This document shows positions 7 to 16,761 of a stretch of DNA of 64,000 nt, in pieces. Both the position numbers and the translations under genes were made by a program. The notes under the pieces are model-generated. The model was not told where the DNA came from and ran no database searches. It saw nothing but the letters and a program-made list of their open reading frames with translations. Each line of letters starts with the position of its first letter. Position 1 is the stretch's first letter. Source of the DNA: an uncultured Alphaproteobacteria bacterium (lineage in GTDB: Bacteria; Pseudomonadota; Alphaproteobacteria; HIMB59; GCA-002718135); the NCBI GenBank assembly GCA_902621725.1, contig CACNND010000003.1, forward strand, positions 1 through 64,000, written 5' to 3'.

Positions 7-450
7 TTAATGTTTGTGGTTATGTGTTCTGCCCATACCATAAGCACCACCCTCTGGTTTAAATTTTTCAAAAACTTTTTTTACATTCCCATGCAATTTT
101 AAAACCATATCAAAAATTACAGCATCATCTTGAATAAGAATTCTGTTTTCTTCAATTTGACATGGTAGATGTCTATTTCCTATGTGCCATATGATTTGCT
201 TTAAATTATCACCCGTTATTTCAATTAGATTTTCTTCTTTAGAAATAACTTTAATTAATTTTCCATTGTCTAATTCAAAATAATGATTTTCATCAACACT
301 GACGGTTTCTTCAAGATTAACTAAAAATTCAGTACCATTATTTGCTATAAGTTTTTTTCTACGAATAAATCTTTCTTCATAAGATAGTGAAATTTCATCA
401 AATGCTTCTTTATCATTATTGTGATGAATAATTTTGAATGAAGTATCCAT
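7..450 (-). CDS. ureE: urease accessory protein UreE
   Basis: 147 aa ORF with UreE-like GNRHLPCQ motif and His-rich C-terminus (RTHNHKH); directly follows ureC. Confidence 0.93.
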   Translation of the reverse strand: MDTSFKIIHHNNDKEAFDEISLSYEERFIRRKKLIANNGTEFLVNLEETVSVDENHYFELDNGKLIKVISKEENLIEITGDNLKQIIWHIGNRHLPCQIEENRILIQDDAVIFDMVLKLHGNVKKVFEKFKPEGGAYGMGRTHNHKH

Positions 451-451
451 T

Positions 452-2158
452 TTAGTACATAAAATAACGTTGAGCTAAAGGTAGTGTTTCAGCTGGCTCA
501 CAAGTAATTAATTCACCATCTGCTAAAACTTCATAAGTTTCTGGATTCACTTCGATTTTTGGACAGTAATCATTTAATATCATATCTTTTTTTGAAATTT
601 TTCTAATATTTTTAACTGGCAATAAAGATTTACTAATTCCAGAATTTTTGAATGAATTTTTATCAAGAGATGCTTTACTTACAAATGTTGTGGTAGATTT
701 TTCTAATGATTTTCCAAAGGAAGAAAACATTGGTCTTGAGTATACTGGTTGTGGTGTCGGTATAGATGCATTAGGATCACCCATTTGTGAGCAAGCAATA
801 CTTCCGCCTTGTAAAACCATTTCAGGTTTAACACCAAAAAAGGCAGTATCCCAAATAACAATATCAGCACGTTTATTTTTTTCAATACTTCCAATATGTT
901 CGGAAATACCATGGGCAATTGCAGGATTAATTGTATATTTAGCAATGTATCTTTTAACTCTTACATTGTCGTTATTACCCTGCTCTTCTTTTAATTGTCC
1001 CCGTTGAACTTTCATTTTATGTGCTGTTTGCCATGTTCTAATAATAACCTCGCCAACACGACCCATGGCTTGACTATCAGAAGCAATAATTGAAAATGCA
1101 CCCATATCATGCAGTATATCTTCAGCAGCAATTGTTTCTTTTCGAATACGACTTTCAGCAAAAGCAACATCTTCAGGTATTGATTTATCTAAGTGATGAC
1201 AAACCATTAACATATCTAAATGTTCTTCAACTGTATTAACTGTATAGGGTCTTGTTGGGTTAGTAGAAGAAGGAATAACATATTGTTCACCACAAACTTT
1301 TATAATATCAGGTGCATGACCACCACCAGCACCTTCAGTATGAAAAGCGTGAATTGTTCGTCCATTAATTGCTTTAATTGTACTTTCGACAAATCCACTT
1401 TCATTTAATGTATCTGTATGAATCATTACTTGAATGTCATGTTCATCAGCTACATTTAAACAATTATCTATTGCTGCTGGGGTTGTACCCCAATCTTCAT
1501 GTAATTTTAGTGAGCTTGCACCAGCAATTACTTGTTCTTCAAGTGCTTGAGGCAATGAACTATTTCCTTTACCAGCAAATGCCAAGTTCATAGAAAAAGC
1601 ATCTGCTGATTGTATCATTCTTTCTATATGCCATGGTCCAGGTGTAACTGTTGTAGCTAAAGTACCATGTGCAGGACCAGTTCCTCCTCCCAACATAGTT
1701 GTAATACCTGAATGAAGTGCATCATCTATTTGCTGTGGACAAATAAAATGTATATGACTGTCAAATCCACCAGCAGTTATAATTTTGCCTTCACCAGCAA
1801 TTATTTCTGTTCCAGGTCCAATAATAATATTTACATTGGGTTGTGTATCTGGATTACCTGCTTTTCCAATTTCATAAATTAATCCATCCTTAAGACCAAT
1901 ATCAGCTTTATAAATTCCATTTACATCTACTATTAAGGCATTTGTTATAACTGTATCAACTGCACCATCTTTACGAGATACTTGAGATTGTCCCATTCCA
2001 TCTCGAATAACTTTACCACCACCAAATTTTACTTCTTCTCCATACGTTGTTAAATCTTTTTCCACTTCAATAAATAATTCAGTGTCAGCAAGTCTAACCT
2101 TATCACCAGTTGTTGGCCCATACATATCGGCATAAGCTTCTCTTTTTATTTTTTTCAT
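452..2158 (-). CDS. ureC: urease subunit alpha
   Basis: 568 aa; [50 protein letters not shown] and MVCHHLD motifs. Confidence 0.99.
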
Positions 2159-2466
2159 TACAATTGACCCATAACTTTTTTATTAAAACCAAATATCTTT
2201 CTATTTCCTGAAATTTGAATTAATTCTACATCTTTTGATTGACCAGGTTCAAACCGAACAGCTGTGCCAGATGGTATATCTAAACGCATACCATTTGATT
2301 TTTCTCTATCAAATTTTAAATATTCATTTGTTTCTGCAAAATGATAATGACTACCAACTTGAATTGGTCGATCTCCACTATTTGAAACTTTTAAAGTTAT
2401 TGATTGTCTTTCATCGTTCAAATTAATATCACTATTTTGCTTTGTTATTATTTCTCCAGGTTTCAT
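2158..2466 (-). CDS. ureB: urease subunit beta
   Basis: 102 aa; KPGEI...[19 protein letters not shown]...FEPG motifs. Confidence 0.97.
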
Positions 2467-2768
2467 TATCTAATCGGTTTATGTACTGTTACTAATTTTG
2501 TTCCATCTGGAAATGTAGCTTCAACCTGTACTTCTGGAATCATATCTGGAATACCATCCATACAATCTTCTTTTTTTACTACGTGAGCTCCTGTTTCCAT
2601 TAATTCTGATACCATTTTTCCATCTCTTGCACCTTCTATAACAAAATCTGTTATCAAGGCTATAGCTTCTGGGTAGTTAAGTTTAACACCTCTTTCTAGA
2701 CGTTTTCTAGCAACGTTAGCTGCCATACTGACCATCAACTTATCTTTTTCTCTTGGCGTTAATTTCAT
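2466..2768 (-). CDS. ureA: urease subunit gamma
   Basis: 100 aa; [41 protein letters not shown] motifs. Confidence 0.98.
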
Positions 2769-3563
2769 TTATAGATCCCAACTTTTTGGTAGTTTATCAT
2801 TTATTACATTTTTCATAATAATATTTAGTGTTTTTTTTAGATCATAATTATCATCTGCTAAGCATCTAATGATAATTTTATCATCAAATTTTGTCATTTC
2901 ACAATAGTGATTTGCTAAGTTTTTTTTAACTTGTCTTAATACAGACTCTAATTGATGAACAATATCACCAAAAATTAAAATTGTTGATAAAGATGATTGA
3001 TTAGAAAAAGTGTAATTGTTGTTGAAATTATTAATCGTTGATCCTTTAATATTAATTGCTTCAAAATGCTTTATGGAAGAATTTGAATAAATTTTCCATT
3101 GATCAGAAAAAGAAATATTTTTAATTTTTTCAGACATAGCTTTTCTTCCAAAAATTGTTGTTTCACAAAAAATCAAATTAGAATTATCTGATAGATTAAT
3201 ATTGATATTTCTTCTTAATTTTGAATTATCAAATAAAATTAATTCTTTTGGTAACCAATACATAGTAGAATTATTTAAATTAATATTTATTTCTACTCTA
3301 GCTGGGTCTCCAATTCCTGCATAAATTTTTTCTGCAGCTTGAGTACAAACACTCAATTGAGAATTATTAATAAGAGCATTAATTTCAATATTATCATTAC
3401 AAGTAATGCCTCCAGAAGTATTAATTAAAACTAATTCTTTAAATTCATTATAATTTTTTGGATTTAAGATTTTACAACAACCACTTTGAAAAAATTTTGA
3501 AAAATCATTATCTAATAATTCTATATCTATTTTTCCATTTGATCTTTGGAGTAGTTTGTCCAT
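2769..3563 (-). CDS. ureD: urease accessory protein UreD
   Basis: 264 aa; LINTSGGITCNDN and TQAAEKIY motifs, first gene of the ure operon. Confidence 0.93.
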   Translation of the reverse strand: MDKLLQRSNGKIDIELLDNDFSKFFQSGCCKILNPKNYNEFKELVLINTSGGITCNDNIEINALINNSQLSVCTQAAEKIYAGIGDPARVEININLNNSTMYWLPKELILFDNSKLRRNININLSDNSNLIFCETTIFGRKAMSEKIKNISFSDQWKIYSNSSIKHFEAINIKGSTINNFNNNYTFSNQSSLSTILIFGDIVHQLESVLRQVKKNLANHYCEMTKFDDKIIIRCLADDNYDLKKTLNIIMKNVINDKLPKSWDL

Positions 3564-13323: not shown

Positions 13324-14163
13324 TTATTGTTGAGAATTATTTTCTAATGTTTGTACATGAATATCTAAGTTTTCTATCACAGCATCATTATTAATATTTC
13401 CATAAAAAACACCTTTAATAGGTGATGCGTAACTTGCATCAAGTCCACAAGAAACACGTACGTATCTTTCATCTGGACTGCACTTATTTGTAGGATCAAA
13501 TCCCACCCAACCTAAGTCATTGATATAAAATTCTGCCCAGGCATGTGTGGATTGAAATTCTGAAGAATGGGAATTGTTATGCATATAACCATTTACGTAT
13601 CTAGCAGGTATTCCTAAAGTTTTTGCTGCGGCAATCATTATATGTGCTTGATCCTGACAGACTCCCTTTTTCTGATTAAATGCTTCAATGGCTGTTGTTT
13701 GATTATTTGTCGTTAAAGGTTTGTATTCAATTTTTTCAGCTACTAGATTCATCAGATTATGAGATGTTTCTAGATTTTCATTTTCATTAAAACCATTTTT
13801 AGCTTCGATAGCTAAATTTTTTATATCCGCATTTGCTTTTGTTAAATTTGATTCTCTTAAGTAAACTAATGGATCTATTTTATCAGAAGCACTCTGGTAA
13901 ATTCCTTTTGTATCAAATGTTTCGACTTTTCCAAGAACTGTAAATTGTATTTTTTTTACTTTATTTGTATTTGTAAAACTTTGAATATTATTAGCTTCAC
14001 CATCCTGATAAATTTTTGATTTTTTGGCTGAGTCGTTATGGACATTCCACTCTAGAATTTTAAGACCATTATACTCTGAAGGATGCAATTTAGTGGTTTG
14101 AATTAATCCCGCAACTGGATTTTTATATTCATATTTAGTTGTATGTTCAATTATTAGCTCCAT
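13324..14163 (-). CDS. transglutaminase family protein with bacterial N-terminal domain
   Basis: MELIIEHTTKYEYKNPV N-terminus, KKGVCQDQAHIMIAAAKTLGIPARYVNGY and HAWAEFYINDLGWVGFDPTN catalytic motifs; track start 14202 probably too long. Confidence 0.93.
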   Translation of the reverse strand: MELIIEHTTKYEYKNPVAGLIQTTKLHPSEYNGLKILEWNVHNDSAKKSKIYQDGEANNIQSFTNTNKVKKIQFTVLGKVETFDTKGIYQSASDKIDPLVYLRESNLTKANADIKNLAIEAKNGFNENENLETSHNLMNLVAEKIEYKPLTTNNQTTAIEAFNQKKGVCQDQAHIMIAAAKTLGIPARYVNGYMHNNSHSSEFQSTHAWAEFYINDLGWVGFDPTNKCSPDERYVRVSCGLDASYASPIKGVFYGNINNDAVIENLDIHVQTLENNSQQ

Positions 14164-14164
14164 A

Positions 14165-15100
14165 TTAATTAAAAAACTCCTTATGTATTTCGTTATCAAC
14201 ACTAGATATTTTTCTAATAAATTGTGTTACAAATTGATGAAGACCATATTCAACAATAGTTTCTATTTTTTCTTCTTGAATTTTAGTATTTAGATCTTTT
14301 AAATTATTATAAATTCTTCCAACTTTTTCTGGACTGCATGTTAGATTAGTTAAATGTTTGACAATATTTTGAATACAAAAACTTAAAGATCTAGGACAAT
14401 TATTATTTAAAACTAAAAAATCAGCAATTTTAGTTGCAGTAATATTGCCATCGTATGCCCATCTAAAAGCTCTAAAAGATGATAGAGAACGAAGCAATAT
14501 ACTCCATTGCATATTATCGATATTGCCTCCTACATATTGAGGTTTTGGTAATAAAACAAAATACTTTACATCTAATAATCTCGCAGAATTATCTGCTCTC
14601 TCAATAAATAAACCAAGAAAAAGAAAATTATAACCATCATTTCTAAGCAAAGAACTTAATGATCCTCTGAATAAGTTTACTTGTTCTATTGTCCACTCTG
14701 TCAGATCAGGTAAATCAGATTTTATAAATTTTTTTTCTTTTAAGTTTAGTATCTCTTGATAAGTTTTGTTAATTGCTAACCAAGACTCAGGAGTAAATGA
14801 AGTTCTAACTACTAATGCATTATTTCGTGCATTAAGAATACAATTGTAAACAGATGAAGGATTACTTTCATCAAAAAATAAATAATCTTCGACATTTTTC
14901 TGTTCAATTGTATCATATTTATTTTTATATCCCTCAATTGCTCCAGCAGCGGATAAAACTGATTCCCATTCATTATTATAACCACTTGGATTTGGAAAAA
15001 GAGACATTCTATAACCAACGTCCAAGAGCCTTGCTGTTGTTTCAGCTCTTTCCATATAACGACTGATCCAATATAGATATTCAGCAGTTCTACTTAACAT
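14165..15100 (-). CDS. alpha-E domain-containing protein (COG2307-type)
   Basis: MLSRTAEYLYWISRYMERAETTARLLDVGYRM N-terminus. Confidence 0.93.
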   Translation of the reverse strand: MLSRTAEYLYWISRYMERAETTARLLDVGYRMSLFPNPSGYNNEWESVLSAAGAIEGYKNKYDTIEQKNVEDYLFFDESNPSSVYNCILNARNNALVVRTSFTPESWLAINKTYQEILNLKEKKFIKSDLPDLTEWTIEQVNLFRGSLSSLLRNDGYNFLFLGLFIERADNSARLLDVKYFVLLPKPQYVGGNIDNMQWSILLRSLSSFRAFRWAYDGNITATKIADFLVLNNNCPRSLSFCIQNIVKHLTNLTCSPEKVGRIYNNLKDLNTKIQEEKIETIVEYGLHQFVTQFIRKISSVDNEIHKEFFN

Positions 15101-15109
15101 TTTTATTCC

Positions 15110-16516
15110 TCATTCAGCTAATACCCATGTGTCTTTCACACCGCCTCCTTGGCTAGAATTTACAACAAACGAACCTTCATTCATTGCAACTCTAGTTAAA
15201 CCGCCAGAACTTAATTGAGCCTGCTCTCCAATTAAACAAAATGGTCGTAAATCTACCCTTCTTCCCTTAACTTCATTTTTGATAAGTGTTGGTGAAAATG
15301 AAAGATCAAGTAAAGGTTGAGCTATATATCCTTTTGGATTTGTTGAGAGTTTTGTTTTAAATTCATCTATAGAGGATTTAGAAGATTTTGGACCTATTAA
15401 CATCCCATAACCTCCGGATCCATCAACTTCTTTTACGACAAGTTCATTAATATTATCTAAAACATATTTTAATTCTTGTTCCTTTTCGCAATTCCATGTT
15501 TCAACGTTATCTAAGATTGGTTGTTCACCTAAATAAAATTTGATCATCTCAGGTACATAAATATAAATTGCTTTGTCATCAGCTATACCTGCCCCAGGTG
15601 CTGAACAGATATTGACACCACCTGTTCTATAAACATCCATAATTCCTGGAATACCAATCACAGATTGAGGGTTAAAACATAGAGGATCTAAAAAATCGTC
15701 ATCTATTCTTCTATAAACAACATCTACTCTTCTTGGACCATCAACTGTTTTCATATAAAGATATTTTCCTTCAACAAATAAATCTGTTGATTCAACCATT
15801 TCAATACCCATTTGATCTGATAAAAAACTATGTTCGTAATAAGCGCTATTTAAAGGACCAGGTGTAAGTAACACACATACTGGTTCTGGATTTTCACATT
15901 TAATAGGAGCTAAACTCATCAATGTTTGCAAAAGTCTTGTTGGGTAGTCATCTATTGGTGTTACTCTGTTGTTATGAAATAAATCAGGAAACATTCGCAT
16001 CATTATTTCTCTATTTTCTAGCATGTAAGAAACACCACTTGGCGTTCGACAATTATCTTCTAAAACAAAATAATCATTGGGACCTGTTCTTACTAAATCA
16101 ATACCAATTATAGGACTATAGATATCTCTAGGAGGTGAAAAACCAAACATTGATGGTTCAAATGATTTTTTTTTGTAAATAATTTCTTTAGGAATTATAT
16201 TGGCTTTTATTATTTCACCTTGATTATAAATATCAGCAAGAAAAGCATTAAGTGCTTTAGCTCTTTGAATTACTCCTCTTTCTAATCTTAACCATTCAGT
16301 ATATGTAAATATCCTTGGAATTAAATCAAACGGAATAATTCTTTCTCTTGCAGTTTCATTATTTGTAGAAAATGTAATTCCAATATTTCTAAAATGAGTT
16401 TCAGCTTCAGCATTCTTTTCAAAAATGACTTTTGAAGTCATTTGATCTAACCAATCATTAATATTATTATAATGATTTCTTATAACTGACTCAGATTGAT
16501 ACATTTCATTAAACAT
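15110..16516 (-). CDS. circularly permuted ATP-grasp type 2 protein (COG2308-type)
   Basis: 468 aa; EDNCRTPSGVSYMLENREIMMRMFPDLF, TPGPLNSAYYEHSFL, VVKEVDGSGGYGMLIGP motifs. Confidence 0.94.
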   Translation of the reverse strand: MFNEMYQSESVIRNHYNNINDWLDQMTSKVIFEKNAEAETHFRNIGITFSTNNETARERIIPFDLIPRIFTYTEWLRLERGVIQRAKALNAFLADIYNQGEIIKANIIPKEIIYKKKSFEPSMFGFSPPRDIYSPIIGIDLVRTGPNDYFVLEDNCRTPSGVSYMLENREIMMRMFPDLFHNNRVTPIDDYPTRLLQTLMSLAPIKCENPEPVCVLLTPGPLNSAYYEHSFLSDQMGIEMVESTDLFVEGKYLYMKTVDGPRRVDVVYRRIDDDFLDPLCFNPQSVIGIPGIMDVYRTGGVNICSAPGAGIADDKAIYIYVPEMIKFYLGEQPILDNVETWNCEKEQELKYVLDNINELVVKEVDGSGGYGMLIGPKSSKSSIDEFKTKLSTNPKGYIAQPLLDLSFSPTLIKNEVKGRRVDLRPFCLIGEQAQLSSGGLTRVAMNEGSFVVNSSQGGGVKDTWVLAE

Positions 16517-16643
16517 TAAGGGGCAAACCTCTTGAGATTTGAATAGAATATCTTTTTATTATCTAACTTTTTGACCATAGTTATAACAAACCTTTCTTAT
16601 CCGTTATAATTCATGCTTAGCTATGGAAATTAATAATAAGATC

Positions 16644-16694
16644 CGCGTTCCTTCAGCTTTAGCCTACTTCCGATCTGTTATCACAGATTGAACG
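16644..16694 (-). promoter_or_regulatory. putative glutamine riboswitch aptamer (glnA RNA type), gene-proximal copy
   Basis: Minus-strand RNA CGUUCAAUCUGUGAUAACAGAUCGGAAGUAGGCUAAAGCUGAAGGAACGCG: P1 CGUUC/GAACG, P2 AUCUGU/ACAGAU, short P3 GGC/GCU, conserved CGGAAGUA...GAAGGAACGC junction. Confidence 0.85.
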
Positions 16695-16709
16695 GTTTAA
16701 TAACTTGCA

Positions 16710-16761
16710 TGCGTTCCTTCAACTTTCGTTTACTTCCGTTTTGAATTATTCAAAATGAACG
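16710..16761 (-). promoter_or_regulatory. putative glutamine riboswitch aptamer (glnA RNA type), distal tandem copy
   Basis: Minus-strand RNA CGUUCAUUUUGAAUAAUUCAAAACGGAAGUAAACGAAAGUUGAAGGAACGC: same junction with a completely different P2 (UUUUGAAU/AUUCAAAA) and P3 (AAC-GAAA-GUU). Confidence 0.85.

Follow-up and report, generated by a model that had tools for sequence, protein, structure and literature searches.

The window, by which we mean the whole 64,000-nt stretch of contig CACNND010000003.1 from an uncultured Alphaproteobacteria bacterium to which all coordinates below refer, carries on its minus strand a tandem pair of class I glutamine aptamers that heads a three-gene, peptide-ligase-type operon encoding ATP-grasp, Alpha-E and transglutaminase-like proteins. 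In what we consider the best explanation overall, and a reasonably probable one, the pair is a tandem class I riboswitch in which a helix, P0, would link both aptamers to a single expression platform, and through which glutamine would turn off a nitrogen regulon.

Identity and conservation of the aptamer pair

The first-pass annotation had described two consecutive minus-strand elements with a common layout, CGUUCA-[P2]-CGGAAGUA-[P3]-GAAGGAACGC, and had taken them for the glnA RNA (L-glutamine riboswitch) in an alphaproteobacterium-like genome. Both elements are present, and the pair is confirmed by family match as tandem class I glutamine aptamers (cmscan vs Rfam, run on the whole window):

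16712-16761, minus strand: glutamine aptamer 1 (P1 CGUUC/GAACG, P2, P3); RF01739 match 16763-16708, 66.0 bits, E 2.1e-12
16646-16694, minus strand: glutamine aptamer 2; RF01739 match 16696-16642, 59.9 bits, E 1e-10

The two scores exceed the gathering score of 35 for RF01739 (class I glutamine riboswitch, glnA RNA), while Downstream-peptide (RF01704) stayed below its threshold, and no riboswitch family other than RF01739 was found in the window by the same search. The junction letters are invariant across 66 non-redundant related tandem loci, in which the junction CGGAAGUA / GAAG and P1 are kept and P2 and P3 vary but remain paired. Many two-sided compensatory changes occur in P2 and P3 of aptamer 1 and in P2 of aptamer 2 (e.g., UA:43/AU:23 in P2a and AU:38/GC:28 in P3a), so that the earlier remark that P2 and P3 differ between the copies yet keep their pairing is borne out and extends to orthologous and paralogous leaders. 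Model match, junction conservation and P2/P3 covariation together support tandem class I aptamers in an alphaproteobacterial host. The steeper glutamine response that was also proposed for the tandem arrangement is plausible as a prediction.

Target operon

The pair stands upstream of the following genes:

15110-16516, minus strand: circularly permuted type 2 ATP-grasp protein, 468 aa (PF14403, E 1.4e-152)
14165-15100, minus strand: Alpha-E protein (PF04168, E 2e-86)
13324-14202, minus strand: transglutaminase-like protein (PF01841 and PF08379)

The role of such ATP-grasp/Alpha-E/transglutaminase operons is unproven (PMC6376114). The part of the literature covered by our check, including published target lists, contained no mention of this operon as a target of a glutamine riboswitch, and it appears to be a new one. 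The first three genes and their order are the same as in the Anbu operon (ATP-grasp, Alpha-E, transglutaminase, Anbu), and a link to nitrogen status is common to both (PMC5666114; PMC6376114; PMC5491218). However, the window operon has no Anbu alongside: no PF00227 match was found near it, and the sole proteasome-family match found in the genome lies on another contig. The two also differ in control, which is by a glutamine riboswitch in the window operon and by NtrC/sigma-54 in the Anbu operon comparison.

A urease cluster (ureE, urease alpha, two small ORFs and ureD) occupies positions 7-3563 of the minus strand, about 10 kb from the operon. In a marine metagenome study, urea-metabolism domains co-occur with ATP-grasp, Alpha-E and transglutaminase domains of this kind (PMC3597751). 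A match to RF02514 (5_ureB_sRNA) at 1726-2005 on the plus strand was rejected as a separate RNA; it lies antisense inside the urease alpha gene (452-2158, minus strand) and probably reflects similarity of coding sequence.

Related leaders in the genus and in a second family

Four tandem pairs are present in the same genome, before glnA, two amt genes and the ATP-grasp operon. The glnA pair stands directly after glnB, and both amt genes encode marine-type ammonium transporters. Sigma-54 was absent from nine genomes of the order to which the window genome belongs, and glnA, the two amt genes and the ATP-grasp operon appear to form a glutamine-controlled nitrogen regulon in genomes without this factor. 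RF01739 matches were found in 35 of the 36 genus relatives first examined, mostly paired, and the element precedes the PF14403 gene in every genus genome of the relatives sample that has the gene (22/22, window genome included), two of these showing one aptamer because the contig ends.

A second alphaproteobacterial family, f10, has RF01739 in 23 of 32 genomes, and in all 23 a single aptamer lies 3-50 nt upstream of the same ATP-grasp gene. Downstream of that gene, the two f10 genomes checked have Alpha-E and transglutaminase-like genes, recognized by resemblance to the window proteins. In a phylogenetic tree, the ATP-grasp proteins of f10 and of f1, the family on the side of the window genus, group together with support 92/92, near those of Sinorhizobium, Burkholderia and Limimaricola. 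A sister family, f2, was considered as a case of the same operon without the switch and was rejected; its ATP-grasp protein is a distant paralogue in the tree, with an Anbu-like gene adjoining in the genome checked, and f2 is therefore no control. Among 296 genomes sampled from the class, RF01739 was confined to the genus and f10, and no further tandems with a 16-18 nt linker were found outside the genus in the wider class sample.

The linker and a probable P0 helix

The following features, all on the minus strand, lie between the aptamers and beyond aptamer 2:

16695-16711: linker between the aptamers, 17 nt; 16-18 nt throughout the group's tandem pairs
16711: C directly after P1 of aptamer 1, adjoining P0; invariant in 66 tandem loci
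16700-16710: putative P0 5' strand, AUGC (16710-16707) and AGUUAU (16705-16700), complementary to 16624-16613
16625-16644: small hairpin P4 (GGA..UUA / UAA..UCC) that separates aptamer 2 from the P0 3' strand, from leader folding
16613-16624: putative P0 3' strand, AUAGCU (16624-16619) and GCAU (16616-16613), conserved in all loci of the class

Measured between the P1 helices of the two aptamers, the linker is 16-18 nt long whatever the target gene, with no obvious space to fit a first expression platform, and inspection by eye recognized no terminator-like structure either in the linker or immediately following the pair. Other tandems have linkers of 7-11 nt, in various proteobacterial records and phage contigs, or of 22-25 nt, in SAR86 and other gammaproteobacterial records, with a hairpin visible within the linker. 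In the 16-18 nt class, P0 consists of AUGC/GCAU, a small internal loop and AGUUAU/AUARCU, and its complementarity is present in four gene contexts and in two SAR116-labelled loci. The duplex has a median energy of -8.0 kcal/mol and a median z of -2.3, vs z of 0.15 and -0.5 for the same measure in the other two linker classes; at single loci, p is 0.02-0.09 (dinucleotide shuffle). Changes within P0 are solely one-sided (A-U to G-U, U-A to U-G), with no two-sided covariation. The size of the internal loop differs on both strands between the glnA and amt types, a difference that may be a single event, and P4 is not present in glnA-type leaders. The conserved complementarity makes P0 a probable helix, and the architecture, in which the sequence linking the two aptamers is complementary to a strand past aptamer 2, appears to be new.

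The lack of two-sided covariation would suit a reading that we find rather unlikely, namely that the two aptamers are independent and pseudo-cooperative and that the conserved linker and downstream strand serve otherwise, for example in protein binding. A survey indeed lists glutamine doublets as pseudo-cooperative, i.e., as two independent switches (PMC9481103). However, each such switch needs its own platform, which so short a linker has no evident room to provide, and the linker complementarity is kept across the gene contexts and the SAR116-labelled loci.

Another possibility, which we judge quite improbable, is that without ligand the domains are swapped, with GAACG of aptamer 1 pairing with CGUUC of aptamer 2 and the outer strands pairing together, and that glutamine restores two aptamers. 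Since the P1 strands are identical and invariant, sequence cannot tell the swap from normal P1. The swap appears in the RNAalifold consensus and in some minimum-energy folds, and its mean probability reaches 0.36 in free glnA leaders, but it is rare in the amt1 (0.06) and ATP-grasp (0.12) leaders. It could also exist as the unbound state alongside the P0-linked model.

Expression platform and upstream ORF

Two further minus-strand features lie between P0 and the ATP-grasp gene or reach into P0:

16516-16578: upstream ORF, 20 codons (MVKKLDNKKIFYSNLKRFAP), its stop overlapping the gene start as TAATG
16575-16626: predicted alternative hairpin CCAUAG (16626-16621) / CUAUGG (16580-16575), from sequence and folds of close relatives

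An upstream ORF of 16-25 codons that ends -6 to +8 nt from the gene start was found in all 31 distinct ATP-grasp leaders, and a comparable ORF in 17% of shuffled leaders. In 16 of the 31, a simple motif test detected no Shine-Dalgarno sequence for the ATP-grasp gene itself. The simplest reading is that translation of the upstream ORF is coupled to that of the ATP-grasp gene, as a prediction.

The P0 3' strand overlaps a candidate anti-initiator strand, so that the two pairings compete. At the ATP-grasp locus, the alternative hairpin, with an inner UUAUAAC/GUUAUAA, would cover the start codon of the upstream ORF; its CUAUGG is not conserved in a second subgroup. Bases around the P0 3' strand could pair with the Shine-Dalgarno region of amt2 at -8 to -10.5 kcal/mol in most loci shown, and with initiation regions at -7.3 to -9.0 kcal/mol in amt1 and -7.7 in some glnA leaders. 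In amt leaders the P0 3' strand is clearly complementary to the start/Shine-Dalgarno region; in the glnA and ATP-grasp leaders this complementarity is not significant.

Direction of switching

In the solved aptamer structure, G23 enters P1 upon ligand binding and pairs there with C60, the linchpin (PMC11477058), to which C 16711 would correspond by position. Folding with both aptamers fixed and this C made unavailable lowered P0 in each leader (from 0.94 to 0.45 in amt2, 0.32 to 0.06 in ATP-grasp, 0.99 to 0.82 in amt1 and 0.08 to 0.00 in glnA), and the freed strand paired more with downstream sequence. The loss of P0 on capture of the linchpin C therefore favors glutamine OFF. In one genus of f10 (g290), 3 nt separate the end of the aptamer from the start codon, and the sole Shine-Dalgarno-like sequence is the aptamer's own AAGGA, which likewise points to OFF. 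In Burkholderia, the same gene cluster is switched on by NtrC and sigma-54 when nitrogen is limiting (PMC5491218), and this activation, together with the absence of sigma-54 here, is consistent with glutamine OFF. Calculated Shine-Dalgarno accessibility was unchanged between free and bound folds (forced aptamers) and gave no direction, and the direction therefore rests on inference.

Counting against OFF, the tested class I cyanobacterial glutamine switch turns expression on, and cyanobacterial class I and II glutamine riboswitches alike activate expression (PMC6316151). Glutamine ON would have the folded aptamers favor P0, sequestering the anti-initiator strand from the initiation region and raising translation, and forcing aptamer 2 alone does increase P0 in the amt and ATP-grasp leaders (e.g., from 0.41 to 0.94 in amt2). 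Nevertheless, we regard ON as unlikely: capture of the linchpin C reverses this effect in folding, the target genes scavenge nitrogen and are induced in other bacteria under nitrogen shortage, and in g290 the ligand-bound aptamer would bury the sole Shine-Dalgarno sequence. Most likely, glutamine shuts translation off, at this locus by way of the conserved 20-codon upstream ORF.

In the OFF model, the linker and the strand beyond aptamer 2 would pair as P0, abutting P1 of aptamer 1 and enclosing aptamer 2, and from this enclosure we infer that both aptamers act on one platform. Glutamine in aptamer 1 would cause the invariant C after P1 to be taken by the linchpin pair, P0 would loosen, and its freed 3' strand would cover the ribosome-binding or start region, reducing translation. 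At the ATP-grasp locus, it would be the start of the upstream ORF that is covered, and translation of this ORF would otherwise supply ribosomes to the ATP-grasp gene through coupling; with low glutamine, the operon would be on. Tentatively, we further propose an interlocked two-aptamer, one-platform switch, in which a P0 strand doubles as the anti-initiator and both aptamers are coupled to translation through ligand capture of one C. This switch would control glnA, both amt genes and the peptide-ligase-type operon in genomes without sigma-54.

Relation to known systems

Tandem glutamine riboswitches and their glnA, PII and amt targets are already known (PMC2864571; PMC9481103). The window pair shares the aptamer fold and junction letters of the class I family (RF01739), including its doublets, and adds to the known doublets the operon target, the linker-strand complementarity and the upstream ORF. 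It belongs to an alphaproteobacterial genome, whereas a review confines glutamine riboswitches to cyanobacteria and states that class I had been connected with GS and amt genes solely in environmental sequences from uncultured strains (PMC6316151); riboswitch-linked glnA and amt genes are now placed in assembled genomes. The window pair resembles the tandem glycine riboswitch in having two aptamers for the same ligand and, as it seems, may also serve a single platform, but the glycine aptamer is unrelated, and cooperative binding has been shown for glycine and is conjectural for the window pair. If P0 is real, some glutamine doublets would be single coupled devices, offering a simple system for testing cooperativity. 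Glutamine riboswitches in two alphaproteobacterial families and NtrC in Burkholderia put the operon in the nitrogen response under two unrelated regulators.

Other glutamine aptamers

Several further arrangements were observed. Single glutamine aptamers precede a divergent ammonium transporter gene (~30% identity to the Amt of the window genome) at L040, L096, L105 and L118, with no P0-like strand seen after them. A 141-aa ORF without an NCBIfam match lies between two amt genes (L039, 6415-6840, minus strand). The linker lengths of tandems (L119-L327) cluster near 9, 17-18 and 24-25 nt, a spacing of roughly 8 nt; among these loci, 89 viral contigs (L239-L327) carry the tandem pattern before phage genes, nearly all with linkers of 8-11 nt. 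Triple aptamers, spaced by linkers of 7 and 24 nt, occur before a gene with a signal-peptide-like start (L127, L137 and L185). Finally, genome G457 has three copies of one short glutamine aptamer before the same gene on three contigs (L413-L415), identical over the stretch printed.
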